A stretch of 64,000 bases of DNA from Chloranthus sessilifolius (Eukaryota; Streptophyta; Magnoliopsida; Chloranthales; Chloranthaceae). The stretch spans positions 81,193,765 through 81,257,764 of the forward strand of contig CM037588.1 in the NCBI GenBank assembly GCA_021018995.1. Reading direction: 5' to 3'. This document shows, in pieces, positions 6,272 through 52,543 of the stretch. Position 1 is the stretch's first letter, and each line of letters opens with the position of its first letter. The notes under the pieces are model-generated. The model was given only the letters and a program-made list of their open reading frames with translations. It had not been told where the DNA came from and searched no databases. The translations under genes were made by a program, and so were the position numbers.

Positions 6272-7207
6272 CCCTTGCAACCTGTGCTTGTTGTTAAATT
6301 ATTTGACATATGGGGAATTGATTTTATGAGACCTTTTTCCCCCTCCTATGGATATAATTTCATCCTTGTAGCTATGGACTATGTGTCCAAATGGGTAGAG
6401 GCCATAGCTACAAGAACAAATGATCATAAGGTTGTCATTAAGTTTTTAAAGGACACCATCTTCTCTAGGTTTGGCACCCCCAAAGCTATTATTAGTGATG
6501 GAGGAAGCGACTTTTGCAACAAACCTTTTGAAAAATTATTGAAAAAATACTTTGTGACCCACATAATTGCTACTCCCTACCACCCACAAACCAGTGGGCA
6601 AGTAGAGATTTCCAACAGGGAAATCAAACACGTCCTAGAGATGATTGTGCGAGCTGATAGGAGAGATTGGTCCATAAAACTGCCAGATGCCTTGTGGGCT
6701 TATAGGATTGCCTATAAGACCCCCATAGGGATGTCCCCATTCAGGCTATTGTATGGCAAGGCATGTCACTTGCCTATTGAGCTAGAACATAGAGCATATT
6801 TGGCCATCAAAACATTAAATTCTTACTTAACTTTTGCTGGTGTGAACAGGAAATTACAATTATCTGAGCTTGATGAGTTGAGGATGGAAGCATATTCAAA
6901 TGCCCGAATCTACAAGGACAAAACCAAAGCCTTTCATGACAGGCACTTGCTACGGAAAGAATTCAAAATAGGTGACAAGGTATGGTTGTTTAATTCAAGA
7001 TTAAAATTCTTTCCAGTAAAATTACAATCCAGATGCGATGGGCCCTACACAGTTTTACAGGTTTTTCCATCTAGAGCTGTAGAAATCATGGACCCTAAAG
7101 ATGGTAGGGTCATGAAAGTCTATGGACAGAGGTTAAAAATTTATGTTGAAAAAATTTGTGAGCCTGACGAGACCATTGATCTTCAGGACCCTCCAATTTA
7201 TACATGA
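6272..7207 (+). pseudogene. Integrase region of element C
   Basis: About 310 codons read openly from the end of A's LTR. The core domain begins at [12 protein letters not shown] (first catalytic Asp) and continues with [11 protein letters not shown] (second Asp) and [16 protein letters not shown] (catalytic Glu). [20 protein letters not shown] and [17 protein letters not shown] follow, which are signatures of plant Athila/Ty3 integrases. The C-terminal part has the usual [14 protein letters not shown] and DGPYTVLQV blocks. The upstream zinc-binding part is on the other side of element A. The first 30 bases of the open frame (6242-6271) belong to A's LTR, not to the integrase. Confidence 0.9.
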
Positions 7208-7444
7208 TTTCAGTTTATATCATATGTACTATATTTTGGTTCTGTTTTAAGTGCTTACTTTCTGTTTTGATGTTTTGTTCATTTATAATAAAATTGCCAT
7301 GCTAGCATTAGGTCATCATTTCAATCTTGTCAGCAGTCCAGGGACCATGGGAGTATGTCAACAATGGAAGAAAATTTGAATGGAAGCACAACAAAAGAGT
7401 TTGCTGAGTGTTGAGGCAGAGCACTGCACGAAAATGCAGTTTCT

Positions 7445-7910
7445 ATGAGCATATGAGACCTTTTGATAGGTCATTTGAGTATGTCTTGTCGATAGGTGAA
7501 AACAACTCTTGGATAGGTTCAAAAAGACAAAAAGAAGTTTTCAATAGGTTCTAGATACTTATCAAGAACCTATCGAAAGGATGAATCACATACCAGATGA
7601 ACCTATCGATAGGAAGGATTTGACCTATCAAAGCATCTCATCTACACACTGTATTCTTTATAATGTTCGATAAGATACCTTGATCTATCAAAATCATTCA
7701 TCTCATCCTATCGAAATCGATTTTCACCTTTTATTTACCTGTCGTTAGGTCACTTCTGCTACATTCAACAGTCTCTATAGAACCCTAGCTCACTCTTCCC
7801 CATTTATCGCTGCTAAGGAACCAAACCTCGTCGACAGGATAGAGTGAACCTCTCGAGAGTTTCAATAGTTTTTAACCTCTCGACAGGTTGCACCAACCTG
7901 TTGGAGCTCA
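7445..7910. repeat. Array of CCTATCGATAGG-like motifs downstream of C integrase
   Basis: About a dozen degenerate copies of a self-complementary motif (AACCTATCGAAAGG, CCTATCGATAGG, CCTGTCGTTAGG, CCTCTCGAGAGT) at irregular spacing of 20-60 bases. The same motif fills part of C's LTR at 10570-10960. No protein-coding signal was seen from 7208 to 8221. The spacing is irregular and the intervening sequences are unrelated, so this is not a simple tandem repeat. Confidence 0.65.
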
Positions 7911-30442: not shown

Positions 30443-30666
30443 TTGCTAAAGAGTCGTTAACGTCGCTCCCCTATAGATGATATAAAAAGAGAGCTTCAAT
30501 GTAATCTCTTCTCCGCTCCATTAAAAAAATCATAATCTCCAAAACTGGACCCTACAAGAAACTGGAGTGGTCATCATTATCGAACATGGTTGCCACCGCA
30601 AAGTCTGAAACGTAATAAAACCTAAGAATACTATACAACGACTCCCAACCACTCTATGCGCACCAC

Positions 30667-30673
30667 TATATAT
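30667..30673 (+). promoter_or_regulatory. TATA box of PR-1
   Basis: TATATAT in the context CACCACTATATATGCCC, 75 bases before the ATG. With a start site about 30 bases downstream it would leave a leader of roughly 40-45 bases, normal for a plant gene. Confidence 0.6.
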
Positions 30674-30741
30674 GCCCGCCTCCCATAGAGCACAAGAAGC
30701 CCCTCAATTACTGCACGGCCACACCAAGCCCAAGTGCTGCC

Positions 30742-31254
30742 ATGATCAGATCAGACGGCTTTTGTGCCGTGATCATCGCCATTCTCCTCCTGATTCTCAT
30801 ACCCAACCAAGCCGATGCACAAGATAGAGGCTCTCTCAGCATGGCTAGGCAGTTCTTGGCTCCACAAAACGCGGCACGGGTGGCACTAAGGTTGCCGCCG
30901 CTAGTGTGGGACACACGGGTGGCGCGGTATGCAGAATGGTATGCAAACCAAAGGCGAAAAGACTGCGCCCTAAAGCACTCAAATGGGCCTTATGGTGAGA
31001 ACATATTTTGGGGGAGCGGGTACGGTTGGACCCCAGGTCAGGCAGTCACGGACTGGGTCTCGGAGCGCCAGTGGTACAGGTATTGGACCAACACGTGTGC
31101 CGCCAGGGAGGAGTGCGGGCACTACACCCAGATCGTATGGAGTAAAACAAAGATGGTAGGGTGCGCCAAGGTGACTTGTTATGGGGGCAGAGGGGAGTTC
31201 ATCACTTGCAACTATGACCCCCCAGGCAATTACATTGGAGAAAAGCCCTATTGA
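30742..31254 (+). CDS. PR1: Pathogenesis-related protein 1 (CAP superfamily), secreted
   Basis: Intact single-exon gene of 170 codons, the usual PR-1 size and structure. Residues 1-26 are a signal peptide with hydrophobic core VIIAILLLILI and a likely cut after ADA, so the protein should enter the apoplast. The mature part has the CAP fold signatures: PLVWDTRVARYAEWYA, HSNGPYGENI, GHYTQIVW (126-133) and CNYDPPGNY. His79, Glu86, Glu109 and His127 form the metal-site tetrad. Six cysteines remain after cleavage (75, 119, 125, 141, 146, 156), matching three disulfides. The last 11 residues, PPGNYIGEKPY, fit the CAPE defence-peptide pattern after CNYD. The mature protein has about 18 basic and 12 acidic residues, so it is a basic form. 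Family members bind sterols and act in defence; induction by pathogen is likely but inferred. Which PR-1 paralogue it is cannot be told. Confidence 0.96.
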   Translation: MIRSDGFCAVIIAILLLILIPNQADAQDRGSLSMARQFLAPQNAARVALRLPPLVWDTRVARYAEWYANQRRKDCALKHSNGPYGENIFWGSGYGWTPGQAVTDWVSERQWYRYWTNTCAAREECGHYTQIVWSKTKMVGCAKVTCYGGRGEFITCNYDPPGNYIGEKPY

Positions 31255-37271: not shown

Positions 37272-39676
37272 CTACATTTCTTTCACTTTTGCTTGCATTC
37301 CATCGAACACATCAGTTGATACCCCGCCATGGCCAGAAGACGAGCCCCATAGCCTAGTGGGGGTCATGCCTAAGCCATAGCCTCGGACACGGCCAGGCTT
37401 TTCTTTTCCAAATACTATAGAGATCGGGTAATTTTTAGAGCTTGCATCCTGCATACCTTCTTGTGTGCTGATGATGTGCTGCAATTGGCTCTGCATTTTA
37501 CCATTTAATTAGGAAGGGACAAACGGAAGTTAATCGTATGATGTTAAGACACCTCTAAAGTCTTCCCAATTGTACAAATTGCAAATTCTCCAAATGTACT
37601 TACGATCTAATTTAAAATCAAGACTTCAAAGATTTCAGTTCATTTTAGTGTGTTGTGACATTTGGTGAATCTCATTTATTCATTGAAGTAACCTTGTAAG
37701 ATTTTAGTTCATTTTAGTTTCCGTAATCTTATGGAGAGGGTAAGCTACCTTGTACAATGCTAGTTCGCTGCCATGTGGTACAACTGAATGAGCTGCGATG
37801 ATCAAAACCATTGAAAACAAATTCTAAAGAATAATATATATCTGCATAGGCAATGGTGTCAACTAAGCAGAAAATGAATGGGAAAACAAATATATTTTCA
37901 CCGTTCATTTTCCATCCAGTTGATAGATTTTTCTTTCAATGGCTATGATCATCGGGTTGGTCATCCACATGCAATCCCATCATGTGATTAGGCACCACAT
38001 GGCATGGACTCGTAGGACCAGGGTTCCATTGTCCACTCTATAAACAAATATACTAGGTGATGCCCAAAATGAAAAACACATAAAACATAGTTGTGCTTAA
38101 TAATGGTCACTGAACTTATGAAACATTTTGTGGTTATTTTCTGAAAATTTCTGAAAATTCCAATACGGAGACAGTGCCATAACTATATATATAACTACTA
38201 TAGTGCTATGTATTCCATAATGTTTTAGCAAGATCTTGTTCGCCATTTGATTTACTATTTAAATGGGCTATTAATTTTAGATGCTTTACATTTTATCATG
38301 TAGAATGCAACTCCTTTTGGTCATACATGCTTCTAAAGTTTAAGCTAGTGCTTGACTGGAAAGTGGAAACCAAATGGAGCCTTTCTCCATTCATAGTTTC
38401 TATGATATTGTATTCATTTTGAAAAGTGATGGCGTTACTACCGACGATTGTAAGCATATTTTAGACTGGTAATTATAGATCATATACACTTATAAGCATA
38501 TTAAATAAAAAATGTTATTATAAATTTAAGTAATCTTACAATCTTATTTGCAATCACTTCATTCACTACTGAGCCATCTTTTCAGGTGTGTGTCTTAAAA
38601 AACATTTGAAGTCGGGTAGGAGAGGTTTGTGTATCGCTCTTTACTCGCTGTACCATTGAAGAGTTGAAAGATGTGGTAAATCATACTTATAAAGATAAAC
38701 AAGATAGATACGTCATATACACATAAAAAAAAAAACATATATGCACTACAAAAAATAAGACTATTAGCGGCAGTTTTTTTTAATAAAAAACTACAGCTAT
38801 TAGTCCTGTCGCTACAAATAGCGGCAGTTTTTTGTAGTGTAGCGGCAGTTTTTTATAGCGACAATACTAATAGCGGCAGTTTTTTATTAAAAAAAACTGC
38901 CGCTAATAGTCTTATTTTTTGTAGTGATGCATACCTCCTCCTCTTGTATCCTTGCAAAACTTTTTGACCCAGCCATATGGGGCAAGGTCTGGCAGGAGCG
39001 ATTCTTTTTATTCTTTTCACCTGTATTCTGTATTAGAGCAATTTAGCCAAAATTAGAAGTTTTTAAGTGATATATGTTTCATAAAAGGTAATTCAAAAAC
39101 CATTTATACCCTCCCCACTTCTGAATTCCAATATTGCCCGAGAGCATGCCATTGAGCGGACACTACTCCATCGGGAGGAATAGCGTAATGCTTCATATCA
39201 ATTATGGAAGGGTCATAATTTTTTAACTTCAGCTCACACTTAAAACCCCTCCACTTCTTCCCGACAGATTGCATCATGAAGTACCGCAACCCCTCACTGA
39301 CATCGAACTTCTCCTGCACCACAAAAAAATAAAAAACATTTGTATGAATTTTAGTCAACCATGTGAAGAAAAAGTAAGAGCCAATAGCAATAAATAATGA
39401 ATTTACCTTAACGCACTCCCATACATGTGCCTTTGCAGCTTTATCAACGCCACGCCATGTTGGGCAATCAATGCCCAACTTCATTCCATCTCTTGCTAGA
39501 ATTCCACACCAGTTTGCTAATTTACTGGTATGTTTTTCAGCTGGTTGGCCATTTCTGACTAATACACTAAACTTTTCTCCCTTTTGAACCCGATTCAAGG
39601 CATGGCCCTTTGTAACACCTCGGCCAGTCTTCTTTTTCTTGGATGGTGGGGAGCTTGCTTTACTTGATGGCGCCAT
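37272..39676 (-). CDS. CACTA-encoded Transposase_24 (Ptta/En/Spm) protein gene
   Basis: Starts at 39676 with a basic N-terminus (SPPSKKKKTGRGVTKGHALN), then GQPAEKHTSKLANWCGILAR, TWRGVDKAAKAHVWECVK, EKFDVSEGLRYFMMQSVGKK and WRGFKCELKLKNYDPSIIDM. This matches the Transposase_24 family of plant En/Spm elements, the DNA-binding partner class of the transposase. A 93-base intron at 39314-39406 keeps the frame (GT...GTGCAG). A further exon near 38935-39020 gives HMAGSKSFARIQEEE. The C-terminal part (37272-37496) gives GRVRGYGLGMTPTRLWGSS and AKVKEM, followed by a charged coil. Exon links between 38.9 and 37.5 kb are not resolved, and a CACTA mini-element sits in that gap. Whether the gene is fully intact is unknown. 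Confidence 0.7.
38744..38926. mobile_element. 183-bp CACTA mini-element
   Basis: Starts CACTACAAAAAATAAGACTA and ends with the inverted form TAGTCTTATTTTTTGTAGTG. It is flanked by ATG at 38741-38743 and 38927-38929, a perfect 3-bp target duplication. It is nearly a full palindrome built from AGCGGCAGTTTTTT motifs and has no coding content. It lies between coding exons of the Transposase_24 gene. Confidence 0.88.
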
Positions 39677-40591: not shown

Positions 40592-40734
40592 ACACACTAC
40601 AAAAATTACCGGATACGCCGACGGCTGGAATTAATATGCCGTCGGCGTAGGGGAGGATTTGGGCCAACCCCCGACCACTCCACTTAAGCCCACGACCCTT
40701 CAATCGGGCCACTACATAACTGCGTTTTTCCATC

Positions 40735-41085
40735 TCCCTTCTCCCGAACTCAAACCGTCTCCCTTCTCCCTTCTCCCGAACTCAAACCGTCTCCCTTCTC
40801 CCGAACTCAAACCGTCTCCCTTCTCCCTTCTCCCTTCTCCCTTCTCCCTTCTCGATCCCCTCATTCCCTCTCACTCAAAACCTAAATCTCTCTCACTCAA
40901 ACCCCTCTTGCTCAAATCTCTCTCTCTCAAACCCTAAATCCCTCTCGCTCAAACCCTAAATCCCTCTTTCTCAAATCTCTCTCGCTCAAACCCTAAATCC
41001 CTCTTGCTCAAATCTCTCTCGCTCAAACCCTAAATCCCTCTTGCTCAAATCATCCTCGCTCAAACCCTAAATCCCTTTCTCCTTC
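40735..41085 (+). repeat. Leader of the nested CACTA: CTCCCTTCTCCC repeats, then telobox repeats
   Basis: 40735-40855 is built from CTCCCTTCTCCCGAACTCAA units. 40885-41070 is built from units like CTCGCTCAAACCCTAAATCC with about five perfect AAACCCTAAA copies. AAACCCTA is the plant telobox, common in promoters and leaders of growth- and translation-related genes. Pyrimidine-rich leaders of this kind are typical just downstream of plant start sites. The large CACTA element has a similar block at 54950-55260. Confidence 0.7.
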
Positions 41086-41167
41086 CACAAATCATTACAA
41101 CAGCCCGCCAGAGAATTCATCTAGCGAAGGGTTTATGTGGTACAAGGATCGCCGAGCGGTTGATCTC

Positions 41168-41370
41168 AGTTTGGAGACTGGGCATTGTAAGGTGTTTATG
41201 GAGTCTAAAGATGTGGGTTGAACCCTTGATCTCTCGGTCCTTGGTTCGTATGAAGAGCTTTACAGAAGGTTGGCCAACATGTTTGGGATTGAAAGATCCG
41301 AGATGCTGACCCATGTGCTTTACCGTGATGCAATGGGCACACTTAAAAATGCTGGAGATGAACCATTCGG
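41168..41370 (+). pseudogene. ARF16: Captured C-terminal (PB1) exon of an ARF10/16/17-type auxin response factor
   Basis: Reads SLETGHCKVFMESKDVG, a stop, then TLDLSVLGSYEELYRRLANM, FGIERSEMLTHVLYRDAMGT and LKNAGDEPFG, ending at a GT donor (41371). This is the C-terminal dimerisation (PB1, domain III/IV) part of the ARF10/16/17 group, where Arg follows DVG; here the codon is TGA (41219-41221). The PB1 domain mediates ARF-ARF and ARF-Aux/IAA contacts in the nucleus. The last exon of the domain is not visible downstream. The fragment could add a partial PB1 stretch to a chimeric RNA but is not a working ARF. Confidence 0.85.
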
Positions 41371-42651
41371 GTAAGATTTTATTTATGTTTCCATTTCAAT
41401 TGCTGACATATCGTACATGTTCTAATCTCGTAGAAATAATCTTGAAAAAAAATAATTAATTTTCATATGAAACCAATTCTTCATTTTTTGAGCTACTAAT
41501 CAATCACCATCCACTTGGATTGAATAGTTATGGGAAGTAAGAGATCATGTTCTGATTTTTCTGCAGGCAATAGCCATACCTCCTATCACCATAGATAATT
41601 AATCGAACTGATAGCAATGAATGCTCACATGGTGTTAGAATCACCTTTCAACAATCACTATACTGATATCTGCATGAATGATTTAAATGAACAATTGATT
41701 GCCTGTTGTCTGCTTGAAATATCTGACTGATAAATATGATAAATATGATAAACAATTGATTGCAGGTATAGATATACTGCCGTATGGATTTGTTTATTTC
41801 AGAGGACTATGCTGACAACTTCAATGCCGAGTTTACATGGTAGGTTTAAGTTAAATTAAATATTGTTAAATCTTATTTATTTCTGAAAGATTTTTCTTCG
41901 ATACTTCATGGAATCAAACAAAATACCATCCATGGTTGCAGTAATTTCATGTATCAATATATGCGCGACATTCTTATTTAAAAATAAGATGGTGTTTAAG
42001 ATGTGACATGTCTGGTGCATGAAATAAAACGTCAACAATCGACTAGGTTTTGTGAGGAGATCATCTCTATATCGGTAGATGGTGATGATGTGACATAAGT
42101 GAAACTATATATTTATAACTATACGCATATGTCTGTATAAATGTCATAATTACATTATTCATGGATTCCTTGATGTGTATGCATGATTGCTTGATTTCAA
42201 TTATTATGTCGTTGAGTATGGATTATCATGAAATGAATGACGATGAACTAGATGTATGCCATGTTAGAAAGTTATAAATTTATGACGATGAGCTAGATGA
42301 ATGACGATGAACTAGATGATTATTTGAAATTTATGTTGTTAAATATAAATTGCTTGCATGGCAATGAGAGGCTTATGCACATGTCTATAGAATGATAGAA
42401 GATTACAGGCTATCAATGTGATTTGTACTATCTAACATTTAAATAGTAAAGCAGTTGGCTTGGGCATGAATCTCCTGTTTTTAGGCACATATAGTCACCC
42501 TTGACTCTTTTTTTTTTATAGGTTCCGCCTTGACACTGTTTTGTTGTGTTCTTTATTTTCCTCTGCATGTGATATTTCTATTCTTTACTGTGATTGAAAA
42601 ATCTAATCCTAAAACGGTTCTTATAATATTAAGTATCACATAATTATGCAG
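41371..42651 (+). other. Intron-like spacer inside the nested CACTA
   Basis: Follows the ARF-type donor and ends with the SEC3 acceptor (TTATGCAG). T-rich, with short frames only. A stretch near 41809-41860 (TTATTTCAG followed by an open EDYADNFNAEFTW) is exon-like but not recognised. Confidence 0.4.
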
Positions 42652-43123
42652 GTATGTCATGGGTATTGGTGAAGCAGAGGCATTTTTTGAAAGATTGAAA
42701 AGAGAACTTCTTGCTTTGGAAGCAGCCAATGTGCATGCAATTTTGGAAAGTGAACCATTTATAGCAGAGGTACATAGCCGTTATACACTAAAAGTTATTT
42801 TTTTATTTTTTTAGTATCAGTAAATTGCAAAAACTTTAAGATTTGCATCTGATTCCTTCCTGTTACTATTAAATATTGTAATTATAGGTGAAATATCACT
42901 TTACTGACTGTAAATCTAGTTCTCTAAATATACAGCTCTTGCAAGACTGCTCTATTGATTTTATTTTTATTTCAAATTCCATGTGGTCTGTCATGTGCCT
43001 CTTCTGTGAATGATGCAGGTTTTACAGGGACTAGAATCAGCAACTGTTTGTGTTGATGACATGGATGAGTGGCTTGGTATTTTCAATGTAAAGCTGAGAC
43101 ACATGAGAGAGGATATTGAATCA
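42652..43123 (+). pseudogene. SEC3: Captured two-exon fragment of exocyst subunit SEC3
   Basis: Exon 1 (42652-42769) reads [19 protein letters not shown], then [20 protein letters not shown]. Exon 2 (43019-43123) reads [20 protein letters not shown] and [15 protein letters not shown]. Together these are consecutive residues of plant SEC3A/SEC3B, in the coiled-coil region before IETRNNKLEMQ, with perhaps four or five differences from the forms I recall. Both exons are open, in phase, and keep all four splice signals (TGCAG, GAGGTAC, TGCAG, TCAGTAT). SEC3 tethers secretory vesicles to the plasma membrane. The next SEC3 exon is absent; an unrelated gene piece follows. About 74 of ~890 residues. 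Confidence 0.92.
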
Positions 43124-44234
43124 GTATGGCCATTTTCATGCTTTTATTTTGAGTATCAAATGTCATCCAAATTTCTATTTTGGTCCCAGGCATCAAGGTG
43201 TTTACAGTAGTTTGGAGATTATTCATTGCTTTAGATCATCATAGCAATTATAATTTTCTTCATGCTAACAGTGTTCCTGCCTGGTCCCAGCATCGCGATA
43301 ATGAATTCTCTTCTTGGGTTCAAGTGGGATCTCTGCAAAGCTCACAGTATTTTTTAGGGGCACACAGTGGAATTGACTGGCCCTTAACGCCATTGGGGTG
43401 AGAGGGGCATCCTTCTCGCATGACACTAGAGCCGTGACCAAAATTGATTGTGTGATCGGGGCAAGATCAGTTGCCATCAAATGTATTCATGCAAGCAATA
43501 CTGTAAGTGGGTTTTGTGAAGTGTTTTGGCCCCAATGATCCAAATATTTGGTACAAGGCTTTTGGGATGAGTGACTAGGATTATGGCGCAGATGGAAAAT
43601 TGTGGACCTCCTATATGTCCGTCTGAAATTCAGTTGGTCAATGGTCGGACATTCCTATTCATAACAGAATATATCATTTTATCTGCTCACCATAATGGGA
43701 CAAACAGCCCCCAACCTTCAGTCCACGGGGCTGGTTAGCACTAATTCGATAAGTACTGTGATCGATCGCAGGTGAAGATGGTTCGGGGCAAGTCCTTCAA
43801 TTTTGAAGAATTTTGGCTACTAGAGGAGTCCTTTAACTCGGCAAAAGATAGTTCGAACTACGGCAAAAGATAGTTACGATAAAAGATAGTCCTTTTAATG
43901 TGCCTTTGATGGACATGCACAAGCCTTCTCAAATGACATTCTGACTTGTATAGCACTGTTTGTAGTTATATTTATTCAAATCTGTTAAAACCCTAATGGC
44001 TAAGCTAAATCTTTTACTAATGATATATGCAAGCTGTGAAAGAGTGTTTTTACTTTTGATTAATCCTCTAGTTACTTATCCTTCCAGAGGATGCTTAGTA
44101 CGATTTCAATGCTGCTCCATATGTTAGTAGACAGTCTATGTTGGAATACTGCATGATTTTAGTTCAGCCTGATAAAAAGTTTTGCTGTTGTCTCGGGGAA
44201 ATTGTTCTCTGTTCCTATTGGTTTTGGTATTCAG

Positions 44235-45540
44235 GGTGCAATAAACTTGCTGCTTGCTGTATATAAGAAGGAATTTGGGGTAATGGGTGGGTATTTGACC
44301 AATTCAAGCAAGGTATTCAACTTTCGTGAACATTTCCCCATTATCTACATTGTCAATTACTACATCTCTGTTTCTATTCATGATGATCAAACTGGGATTG
44401 CTTTTGATTCTGATATCAGACATGTTTTTGTTTTGTGACCAATACATGCTTTCTGTTCCTTTTAGCCGGATTTGAGCAAGGTCGAGCATTTCATTCAGGC
44501 AGTAGGATCATATGAAGACAAAATCTTCCAGAAAAGAGCTCGATTGCATCAGGTTAGGTTGATCATTGACATTTTCAGCATGTATGAATAAACGTGCGGC
44601 AGAATTTGTAGGCCAGTACTCTATTAAATAGGATGCAAGCTTCTCTGAGGCATTATTTCAACCTTGTAGTATGCATGTTGTATTTATAGCCATTGAGCTC
44701 TGAACTTTGTCCTTTATCGTGCATTCTGGGAAAACTTACATATTCATCTTGGATCGAGCCTGAAAAACAAAACAGTCCAAGATTTTTTTTTTGAGGCGTT
44801 GGATCTTTGTATTTTCCGATGTGGAATTCAAATTGTGAAATAACATTATCTTTTGGTTAGAGATTGGTTGATTAGAAAATGTGGGATCCAAAATTGTTCG
44901 TGTTTATGCATTTGGAATGATGTTACATAGGAGATGCAATGAGCATACTAAAATCTGGTATTCAGCTTCCACTCAAATTTTTTTTCTTGTTTGTCGATTA
45001 TATCTGTAGTCGGCACTCATTCTGTGTGGACGTGTGGTTCAGTTTTCCTTGTTTTTATATGGAGAAAAGTTTCCTTCAGGAGTTGTGCCTGGTATTTTCT
45101 GTGGTTTCCAAATTGTGGGATAACATTAGCTTTTGCATGGAGATTAGTTAATCCGTGAGCCTTGAAAATCTGGGAGGAATATTGTTCAGTCAAGTGCGAC
45201 ATTCGAATTGGTATATTTTTATCAATGGACAACATGCTGTTGCTCATTTAGCTACCCTATTAAGAGGGTTATTTAGGAATATGATTGTTGCAATGCTCGA
45301 CTCTAGTATTTTATTATACATATATTTAATATTTAAACAATTACTGAACTGATAGGTACTTTTCTTTCCTTTTCCTTATTCAGCGCCAGGCAGACCGAGT
45401 TAAGCGGGAAAAAGCACAAGCAAGAAGAGGCGATGATGCAGAACCTCAATTTAGACCTGAACTTCTAGTGCCAGTTGGTCGTTACCATGGTTCGCGTCTT
45501 GCTTCTGCTCCTTCTCCATCACCTTATCAACAAATGGGAT
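44235..45540 (+). pseudogene. Captured three-exon fragment of an unidentified plant gene
   Basis: Exon 1 (44235-44312) reads GAINLLLAVYKKEFGVMGGY plus LTNSSK. Exon 2 (44466-44552) reads PDLSKVEHFIQAVGSYEDKI plus FQKRARLHQ. Exon 3 (45384 to about 45540) reads RQADRVKREKAQARRGDDAE, then PQFRPELLVPVGRYHGSRLA and a Ser/Pro-rich tail. All introns have GT...AG ends and all exons are in phase 0 and open. The text looks like a helical region with a charged coil followed by a disordered Pro/Ser region. I do not recognise the family. Exon 3 runs into CACTA subterminal sequence near 45550, where capture must have ended. Confidence 0.6.
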
Positions 45541-45589
45541 CCAATCACCCCCCCCCCCAAAAATTTATAAAAAAAAAAAAAAAAGGGGC

Positions 45590-45905
45590 CTACGCCGACG
45601 GCTGCCGCCGTCGGCATAGATCATTTAAAATATTTTTTAAATATTTTTTAAAACACCTATGCCGACGGCATGAGCCGTCGGCGTAGGAGTATTTATATAA
45701 AATTTATATAAATTTAAAAAAAAAATTTAATTATCCTACGCCAACGGCATCCGCCGTCGGCGTAGATTCATGACTTATGCCGACGGCTGAAAACCGTCGG
45801 TGGTTAGATTCCCCGACGAGAATAGTACCGACGGTGTGTCGGCGCCGGCGTAGATATTACAGCCGTCGGCGATTTGTTTTGCCGACGGCTGGGAGCCGTC
45901 GGCGT
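45590..45905. repeat. Subterminal hairpin array of the nested CACTA
   Basis: At least six inverted units of the form TACGCCGACGGC...GCCGTCGGCGTA, each about 28-30 bases, with 20-60 bases between. The opposite end of the element (40611-40650) has only one such unit, so the array is one-sided. Such repeats are where En/Spm TNPA-type proteins bind. Confidence 0.8.
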
Positions 45906-45928
45906 AGGTTACTATTTTTGTAGTGACA

Positions 45929-49719: not shown

Positions 49720-52543
49720 CACACTGCCATCTTTGGTAAATAAAGCATCATTAATCTGATGCATCTCCATCGTCAATGGCATTGACTGAAGGAGCTTGTC
49801 GTGCACAACTTGAGTATGCGGAGGTGCATCAACAATTACTCCAGGCACATTTTCCCCCACCCAATTGACAACATCATTATCATCATTCTCAATGTCATTT
49901 GGTAGTTGATGTCCATAAGGGTCTCTATCCAATAATAAATCATCTTATGCACTCATCTCATATAAGTCCCTAGGTCTATTGTTGACAACGACATGCCAAT
50001 CTGGTTCAGTTGGATCTTGTACATAGAAAACTTGTTTAGTTTGAGATGCCAACACATATGGTTCATTGATTGCTTGATTTCAAGGGAACAATAATCTTGA
50101 AAAATTTACTATTGTGAATCCTAATTCGTCGGTCTTAATACCTCTTCCTTGTGTTGTTACATCAACCCAATCACACTTGAACAATACGTACTTGAGTTGC
50201 TCGGAATATGTCAACTCAATTATGCCTGTTAAGCGACCATAATAGGTCATCTCTCCTGCCACGGGGCTTTTATCTCTTGCATTGGAATAGCTCTTAGTAG
50301 TTGCAGTGACCGCAACACCACTATTTTGAGTTTTAGCACCATTTTCCTTATCAATAGTTCGAAATTTATAGCCATTAATGGTGTAGATGGTCAATCTGTT
50401 AGCAAGGGAACGTGGTCCTTCCGCAAGGAAAGCAACTCCTTCCGCCAATGTACTATATGAATCGCTCAACATTTGAACCTATTGGACATTTGCAAGTAGG
50501 TTAAATTACTAACCAAGATTCATCAACTAAAAAGGTACCTAAAATGCAAACTCTCATAACTTACATAATCCTTAAACCAGTCAATGAATTGTTTGTGGTG
50601 CATTTTCTGTCTTTCATGGGGACCTGCTTTGCGGTGCTTCAACCAAAGTATCTGATTGTGTTGCCTACATGAATTTCATGTCATATGAAACTCCAACACT
50701 GAATAAAATTGTTAATCACATTTAAAATTTTAGTAATTTAAAGGCTTACTCTAGATAATCTTTAACCTTCACATCGTTGAACACATAACGATGTGCCTGG
50801 GTTCATTCTATTTCACTAAGTTTAAATGGCACAGCACCCCTGATCTCATTTACGTCACGATTTCTTGCGGATCAATTTAACCTTGTTTCAATGTCGTTTA
50901 AGTATCTCGAGCAGAATGTTAGACATTCTTCTGCGACATATCCTTCAGCAATAGACCCCTCAGGTTGAGCCTTATTACACACATATGACTTCAGCGTAAA
51001 CAAGTATCTACATTGAAAAATGTTTCATTTATATGAATGAAATTATACTTAATTTCAAATCCATAAATAACTTCAGGTAAAATGGGTCATGCCTTTCGAT
51101 AGGATACATCCATCAATAATGGACAGGTCCACCCAACTGTGCCTCTGATGCCAAATGTATGGGCAAGTGCACCATAACATCAAAAAAAGCAAGTGGAAAA
51201 ATTCTCTCTAATTGACAAAGCACCACTGTAATGCGATTCTCAAGATGTCTCAAATCCTCAATCCGGCAAACTTTCGAACATAACTCACGAAAGAAGTTGC
51301 TCAACTCTATTAATAAATAAGCTATGCTCTTGGGTAATATTTTTTGAATAGCTAATGGCATGAATTGTTGGATTATGACATGTGAATCCTGGCTTTTAAG
51401 GTCATATATTTTGCGCTCTTTAATATTAATGCACCTTGCAATATTTGACGAGTAACCTTCCGGAATCTTCAAACTCTTCAACACTTTGCAGAACATCTCT
51501 TTCTCTCCTTTGTTCATGGAGTAGCATGCGGATGGTAGATAAGCTTTACTTCCACCGTTCTACCATTGTGGGTGTAGCTCATGTCTCACCTCCAAGTGGA
51601 CCAAGTCAAGGCGCGCCTTCAAATTATCCATTGTTTTACCTTCAATATTCAACAAAGTTCCTAACACACTATCACACACATTTTTCTCAATGTGCATTAC
51701 ATCTAAATTGTGTCTGAGTAAATTGTATTTTCAATATGGCAATTCAAAGAATATGCTCTTCTTCTTCCAGTTATATGGCATGCTAACCTCATCCATAATT
51801 TTTGATTTTTTCTTAGCAGATTGTTTTCCAAATACATGTGCACTGTTTTGTAATTGATTCATCACATCTGATCCAGATAGAGGAGTTGGAGCTATTCTGA
51901 ACTCACACGTACCATCAAAAGAATGTTTATCTCTTCGGAACCTATGATTCGATGGTAAGAATCGACGATGACCCATATAACATTGCTTCCTCCCATGGAT
52001 CAAATATCTGCTACATGTGTCCTTATTGCATGAAGGACATGCCAACTTTCCTTTCGTGCTCCAACCAGATAATATAGCATACCCTAGAAAGTCACTAATT
52101 GTCCAAAGCAAGGCGGCACGTAATTGAAATGCCTCATTCTTTGACGCATCATATGTTTCTACCCCAAATTCCCAGAATTCTTTGAGTTCTTCAATCAGAG
52201 GCCTCAAGTAAACATCAAAGTTATTTCTAGGGCCAGATGGACCCGGTATAAGCAATGACAGTATTATGTTTGGCTTCTTCATACATAACCATGGTGGCTT
52301 CTTCATACATTTGGTGTAATTTTGAACAAACCCATTTTATACCATATGACCGTATGTCGTTTCTGTATCTTGATATAATCTGTTGTTGCATCTGACCCAT
52401 GGACACTTCAATTTCCCATTTACAGTTGCTCCTCGAGCTATTGCAAGCTCGATGAATCCTTTCACGCCATGAAGATACTCTGGAGAAATGCTACTCCATC
52501 CAGATACAAAAATAACTTTCTTATTTAAACAACATACCAACAT
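49720..52543 (-). pseudogene. TNP2-type CACTA transposase gene, decayed
   Basis: Reads right to left. 52543-52337 is the transposase-associated domain (SPEYLHGVKGFIELA, KCPWVRCNN). 52306-51731 is the TNP2 core end (PPWLCMKKPNIILSLLIPGP, LLWTISDFLGYAILSGWSTK, CPSCNKDTCSRY, FLPSNHRFRRDKHSFDGT). Then comes LLRHNLDVMHIEKNVCDSVL (51.6-51.7 kb), the DUF4218 region at 51517-51113 (FCKVLKSLKIPEGYSSNIAR, FFRELCSKVCRIEDL) and NKAQPEGSIAEGYVAEECL (50.9-51.0 kb). The DUF4216 region follows at 50472-50000 (FKCDWVDV, ASQTKQVFYVQDP). The stretch between the first domain and PPWLCMK, roughly 300 residues in relatives, is missing. In-frame stops lie at the Trp of ELPYWKY and elsewhere. An intron before YLFTLKSYV has a GC-type donor. 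Not functional as it stands. Confidence 0.88.

Follow-up and report, generated by a model that had tools for sequence, protein, structure and literature searches.

Transposable elements of the CACTA type that carry fragments of several host genes are already known. Tgm-Express1 of soybean is a 5.7-kb non-autonomous CACTA element holding fragments of five unrelated host genes (PMC1947982). Maize Pack-CACTA elements are described as combining several loci within one element (PMC8903248), and a hybrid-element model of capture has been put forward for Pack-TYPE elements (PMC13317346, citing Catoni 2019). Maize Helitrons gain fragments successively, and putative autonomous elements carry fragments too (PMC3288121). 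We analysed a 64,000-nucleotide stretch of the Chloranthus sessilifolius assembly GCA_021018995.1 (CM037588.1, positions 81,193,765 to 81,257,764, forward strand), hereafter the window. Its plus strand contains, at 40595–45925, a complete, non-autonomous CACTA element of 5331 bp with pieces of three host genes in the same sense: an ARF10/16-type gene, SEC3 and XRN, which encodes a 5′-3′ exoribonuclease.

Like Tgm-Express1, this element combines a multi-gene cargo with retained introns and splice sites in a non-autonomous CACTA context. Tgm-Express1 is located within an expressed gene, and its chimeric RNAs have been shown. What sets the present locus apart is that its donors, a carrier with a transposase, an intermediate and sister combinations can all be seen. 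CACTA ends, short duplications, the lack of a transposase and host-gene cargo are shared with Pack-CACTA and Pack-TYPE elements of Arabidopsis and maize. Relative to the Pack-CACTA elements of those species, the locus differs in that a TNP2-bearing relative holds one captured piece and junctions recur at one C/A tract. Stepwise gain and a fragment in a transposase-bearing relative recall maize Helitrons, which belong to another superfamily without CACTA ends or a 3-bp duplication. Set against the general Pack-CACTA and Helitron literature, the present family is an unusually well documented case. Very probably, the element is a young, non-autonomous Pack-CACTA that was built stepwise, is presumably mobilised in trans by TNP2 of its family, and carries its cargo most likely as a passenger.

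The boundaries of the element were read directly from the letters. The left terminus, CACTACAAAAAT (40595–40606), and the right terminus, ATTTTTGTAGTG (45914–45925), have 12 terminal bases in common, the subterminal repeats are of the GCCGACGGC/GCCGTCGGC type, and a perfect ACA/ACA target-site duplication flanks the element, as an earlier note on this DNA had reported. That note had also seen no transposase. In agreement, TNP2 was not found in the element in the list of open reading frames (ORFs), those of the element not being scanned individually, and alignment with F23, a TNP2-bearing relative, showed only the leader, a 36-bp remnant and SEC3 to be shared. The element has the hallmarks of a Pack-CACTA: CACTA ends, a 3-bp duplication, no transposase of its own, cargo traceable to donors and multiplied copies. 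Pack-MULEs have long inverted ends and a duplication of about 9 bp; this assignment was rejected on the CACTA ends and the 3-bp duplication. A retrocopy or processed pseudogene was likewise rejected, as the cargo introns are present and align to the donors.

In Pfam searches, the two consecutive SEC3 exons matched Sec3_CC (E = 2.8e-11) and the three phased exons downstream matched XRN_M (E = 1.6e-16), which supplies the name of a gene that the earlier note had left unnamed. Against solved structures, the XRN exons matched 5′-3′ exoribonucleases, except for three polycystin-2 chains at E of about 0.5. The ARF piece gave only a weak AUX_IAA match (E = 0.017), under the cut-off, yet it is 94.8% identical in DNA to a locus with ARF exons. 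Outside this plant, the best match of the ARF donor to a named species was in Aristolochia californica (76%). The proposed ARF10/16-type PB1 exon stood as to origin, but the element holds the 3′ portion of a longer donor exon, interrupted by an in-frame TGA. Splice signals are retained throughout: GT follows 41370, AG and GT bound the exons 42652–42769, 43019–43123, 44235–44312 and 44466–44552, and AG precedes 45384. The exon joins are compatible, ARF to SEC3 in phase 2 to 2 and SEC3 to XRN in phase 0 to 0. The leader is rich in teloboxes (five AAACCCTAA motifs) and was inherited from the CACTA family rather than taken from a donor gene: TNP2-bearing relatives have similar leaders at their left ends.

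We searched the window's own assembly (2.17 Gb), in which the element search scored 40 of 906 candidates. Matching loci are labelled L0xx or F23, the latter being L034 plus L023 on C14; W denotes the window copy. Among the 40 scored candidates were at least five full-length copies with the same cargo, two on C5 (window included) and the others on C7, C6 and C3. In window orientation, the duplications of the five copies are ACA (window), TTG, ACA, CGA and ACA; those of relatives are TGT (L014), TTG (L016) and ATT (L017). Perfect 3-bp duplications were thus present in 8/8 elements having both ends within the fetched DNA, a count that excludes L013, L015, L018, L019, L028, L029, L039 and L040, in each of which a single end is visible. 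The five copies are 0.26–0.55% apart in isolated substitutions, CAG/CTG/CG contexts excluded, and therefore reflect a recent burst. The single three-gene element of the earlier note does have three donors, but at least four more copies of it exist in the genome, and it contains a fourth block (43181–44199) besides.

The pieces trace to three separate loci, introns included. The ARF donor is C15:74578349-74579019. The XRN donor, C12:76680068-76681418, is 99.6% identical to the window piece and lies in a gene in which XRN_M exon matches flank the piece, with a single match to one side of it and four, in order, to the other. The SEC3 donor is on the minus strand of C9 at about 90,906,600-90,908,750, within L025; of the ten SEC3-bearing sequences tested, no other had four exons in a row. 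The other nine (L023 alone or as F23, L024, L026, L027 and L035–L038) have no SEC3 exon outside the pair carried by the window element and look like element copies; element ends were not seen in L026 and L036–L038. The three pieces were nowhere seen adjacent outside a CACTA element among the 40 of 906 scored candidates. Elements holding the long XRN piece place its breakpoints within 2 bases of one another (8/8), and ARF breakpoints coincide to within 1 base in 7/8, the remaining one beginning 27 bases late; each piece was therefore captured once in the lineage. Shorter XRN pieces with different borders occur in L017, L018 and L019.

Relative ages were measured as isolated substitutions versus the donor, CAG/CTG context excluded. 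The XRN piece differs at 2/1062 positions in the window copy (0.2%) and by 0–0.76% in ten other copies. The corresponding values are 14/507 (2.8%) for ARF, with 13–14 of 504–511 in all eight copies, and 11/676 for SEC3, with 1.3–2.2% across fourteen copies. Eighteen ARF differences are fixed across all eight copies. XRN is clearly the youngest against ARF (Fisher p = 7e-6) and, on these sequence comparisons, appears to have joined last, after ARF and SEC3. Repeated rather than single capture, as the earlier note had suggested, follows because the donors are separate, relatives carry other cargo and XRN is much younger than ARF.

Raw identity to the XRN donor was 94.2–95.6% in L002–L005, L014, L028 and L029 versus 99.6% in the window copy. 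In all of these but L029, 17–26 of 31–44 difference events touch CAG/CTG (expected 3.9–5.5), with 7–14 CWG-to-CG changes per copy and 0–1 reversals; in L029, 12/20 events are at CAG/CTG and three are CWG-to-CG. The corresponding counts are 0/5 in the window copy, 0/2 in L017, 0/2 in L018 and 1/4 in L019. Nanopore miscalls at CHG-methylated cytosines would best fit this pattern, which hints that the copies may be silenced. We rejected strong decay of the sister copies, as the differences cluster at CAG/CTG, and their frameshifts should therefore probably not be taken as decay.

Related elements with other cargo, for which the earlier note had proposed a search, were found (L014, L017, L028 and L029) and form part of a series. 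F23 has a related CACTA left end, which departs from that of the window element after CACTACAAAAA, a similar leader and a 623-aa TNP2 ORF matching positions 1–211 of the 213 of Transposase_21; its SEC3 piece (F23 6560–7597) lies downstream of this ORF in the same sense. L013 comprises the leader, ARF, the 36-bp F23 remnant, SEC3, about 0.5 kb of other DNA and the F23 3′ body. The order in L015 and L016 is leader, ARF, SEC3, 1.2 kb of other DNA as in L013, the block up to window position 43482, the C/A tract and the right end. In L014, L028 and L029, a different 3.6-kb cargo replaces ARF-SEC3; these join the window sequence at 43462, 43474 and 44043, respectively, and all continue into XRN. The window form spans both sides of the 21-bp overlap, 43462–43482. 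L019 has the same right end as the window element, an XRN piece that runs 22 bp beyond the common breakpoint and, upstream, TNP2-like ORFs, of which one fell short of the Pfam cut-off. In L017 (C2:118051000-118060500), two XRN pieces flank MTHFR exons of sense orientation (Pfam E = 5.3e-24 and 6.5e-19). An ABC-transporter exon lies in antisense on the minus strand of L018 (4608–4787; Pfam E = 3.3e-11), some 0.4 kb away from the XRN piece there; as the left end of L018 was not found within 5 kb, this exon is only candidate cargo. In the left-end search (331 candidates), all 40 scored candidates matched, and in the right-end search (305 candidates) 7 of 40 scored matches continue into the adjoining XRN exon and 33 do not. 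At least two of the latter (L005, L017) carry XRN by other analyses.

The series suggests the following order of assembly. First, 1.06 kb of SEC3 from C9 entered a TNP2-bearing CACTA, 3′ of the transposase and in the same sense, as F23 shows. The stretch from the leader to the SEC3 border, including TNP2, was then replaced in a derivative by 0.66 kb of ARF sequence from C15, the junctions of which are seen. Subsequently, the 3′ body was swapped for other DNA, joined via the C/A tract to the constant right end; here the junctions are seen and the direction is our inference. This step would link the window form to its sisters either by fusion with an XRN-carrying sister at the common 21-bp stretch or by loss from a common ancestor. 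Finally, the ARF-SEC3-XRN form moved to at least five sites, as the copies with separate duplications show. Capture may have come about when gaps were repaired faultily or when neighbouring elements fused.

An alternative with an appreciable, though lesser, chance of being correct is that the ARF-SEC3-XRN form is the original and that the L014, L015 and L016 types are its deletion or replacement derivatives, no fusion having occurred. Consistent with this, the window form runs unbroken through the 21 bp at which its sisters diverge. However, L013, L015 and L016 retain SEC3 intron beyond the window SEC3 end, plus DNA missing from the window form, and two independent breaks inside 21 bp would be needed.

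Several points weigh against the stepwise, passenger reading. The source of block 43181–44199 was not found, and fusion and loss are therefore not separated. Divergence did not resolve the order of ARF and SEC3 (p = 0.22). Recognition of the SEC3 gene relied on a hand-entered query, and the Pfam Sec3_CC profile search of the genome gave 0 matches. Finally, fixed differences to the SEC3 donor number 0/167 in exons versus 14/516 in introns (p = 0.03), a deficit that could be explained by constraint on the donor gene or by past constraint in the element.

Junctions of cargo with the C/A tract are seen in W, L003, L004, L014–L016, L018, L019, L028, L029 and L040; the junction in L039 has just CC ahead of the A run. 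We consider it a speculative and rather unlikely extension that the tract by the constant right end is a fixed loading site that repeatedly accepts cargo, preferentially in transposase sense, with TNP2-bearing members as an exon reservoir. If true, the family would assemble exons directionally at a definable acceptor site, rather than collect them at random.

It is improbable that the element is an expressed chimeric gene whose leader drives a transcript spliced ARF-SEC3-XRN and whose sense orientation is maintained by selection. Retention of all splice sites with compatible phases, the telobox-rich leader and the SEC3 exons free of fixed differences speak for it, as do the splicing of Tgm-Express1 exons into chimeric RNAs (PMC1947982) and the common sense of the three cargo genes and of MTHFR in L017. 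However, the chance of one sense is 0.25 for three of three and 0.06 for four of four with L017 MTHFR, and the ABC-transporter exon near XRN in L018, whose left end was not found, is antisense; the selection for sense orientation raised in the earlier note was not upheld. The ARF frame opened by the first ATG (41135) comprises 28 codons up to a TGA (donor CGA), which is present in 8/8 copies. Segregating sites lack a third-position excess, the counts by codon position being 4/57, 4/56 and 2/54 for SEC3, 13/86, 12/82 and 9/80 for XRN, and 5/78, 1/79 and 3/81 for ARF. XRN segregating sites are denser in exons than in introns (34/248 versus 72/848, p = 0.02) and ARF densities are equal, so that the exon/intron tests overall point both ways. 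The spliced chimera matched 116 database proteins among 466 candidates of 0.55–1.75 times the query length; the widest match covers 62%, XRN alone. The pattern hinting at CHG methylation also argues against a chimeric gene. The shared TGA and the lack of clear coding constraint across copies therefore weaken the idea of a chimeric protein. A spliced chimeric RNA is possible by analogy; most likely, the cargo rides as a passenger and is not a new gene. Segmental duplication of a single chimeric locus, suggested by the high identity among copies, is contradicted by every copy stopping exactly at CACTA/TAGTG within its own 3-bp duplication, and we regard it as scarcely credible.

Features of the element and its flanking duplications (window coordinates)
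Feature	Position	Strand	Evidence
Target-site duplication, left copy, ACA	40592..40594	.	matches 45926-45928
Left terminal and subterminal region, one GCCGACGGC/GCCGTCGGC pair	40595..40660	+	repeat analysis, left-end search
Pyrimidine-rich tandem-repeat leader, five AAACCCTAA motifs	40730..41083	+	similar repeats beside F23/L024 left ends
ARF10/16-type piece: 3′ part of PB1-encoding exon (to 41370), splice donor, partial intron	41084..41744	+	C15 donor match
In-frame TGA, ARF exon (donor CGA)	41219..41221	+	in 8/8 element copies examined
36-bp remnant of TNP2-bearing relative, from beside SEC3 border	41760..41795	+	92% to F23 6527-6562; 97% in L013
SEC3 piece, exons 42652-42769 and 43019-43123, with introns	42315..43176	+	Pfam; C9 SEC3 gene and F23 matches
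Block without assigned source; includes 21-bp stretch 43462-43482 where L016-type and L014-type part	43181..44199	.	relatives compared
XRN piece, exons 44235-44312, 44466-44552 and 45384-45545, with introns	44200..45545	+	99.6% to C12 XRN gene
C/A tract (C11, A5 TTTAT A16 G4), cargo meets right-end cassette	45548..45588	+	right-end search
Constant right-end cassette, subterminal repeats	45589..45925	+	repeat analysis, right-end search
Target-site duplication, right copy, ACA	45926..45928	.	matches 40592-40594

Part of the fourth block, 43902–44193, recurs at 97–99% identity on C13, C11, C7, C2 and partly C3; three of these recurrences sit no more than about 0.25 Mb from a contig end. The earlier note had described the element as nested: remains of a second TNP2 transposase do lie on the minus strand at 51116–52336 (Transposase_21 E = 1.9e-65, DUF4218 E = 8.3e-22), but borders of an outer element were not found. 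Just left of the element, 38744–38926 is a short palindromic CACTA-like element with ATG duplications; L003 1319–1465 resembles its end sequence. An open frame for a CAP (PR-1-like) protein occupies 30619–31251 on the plus strand (Pfam E = 1.1e-18).

The CAG/CTG pattern calls for caution when the decay or the reading frames of transposon copies are scored in plant assemblies built from long reads. Discussion of how host genes are taken up by CACTA elements has mostly relied on end products. In this single genome, the donors, a transposase-bearing carrier, an intermediate, sisters and the finished element occur together, so that junctions and relative ages are open to reading, and models of capture, such as gap repair and fusion of neighbours, are testable at base level.

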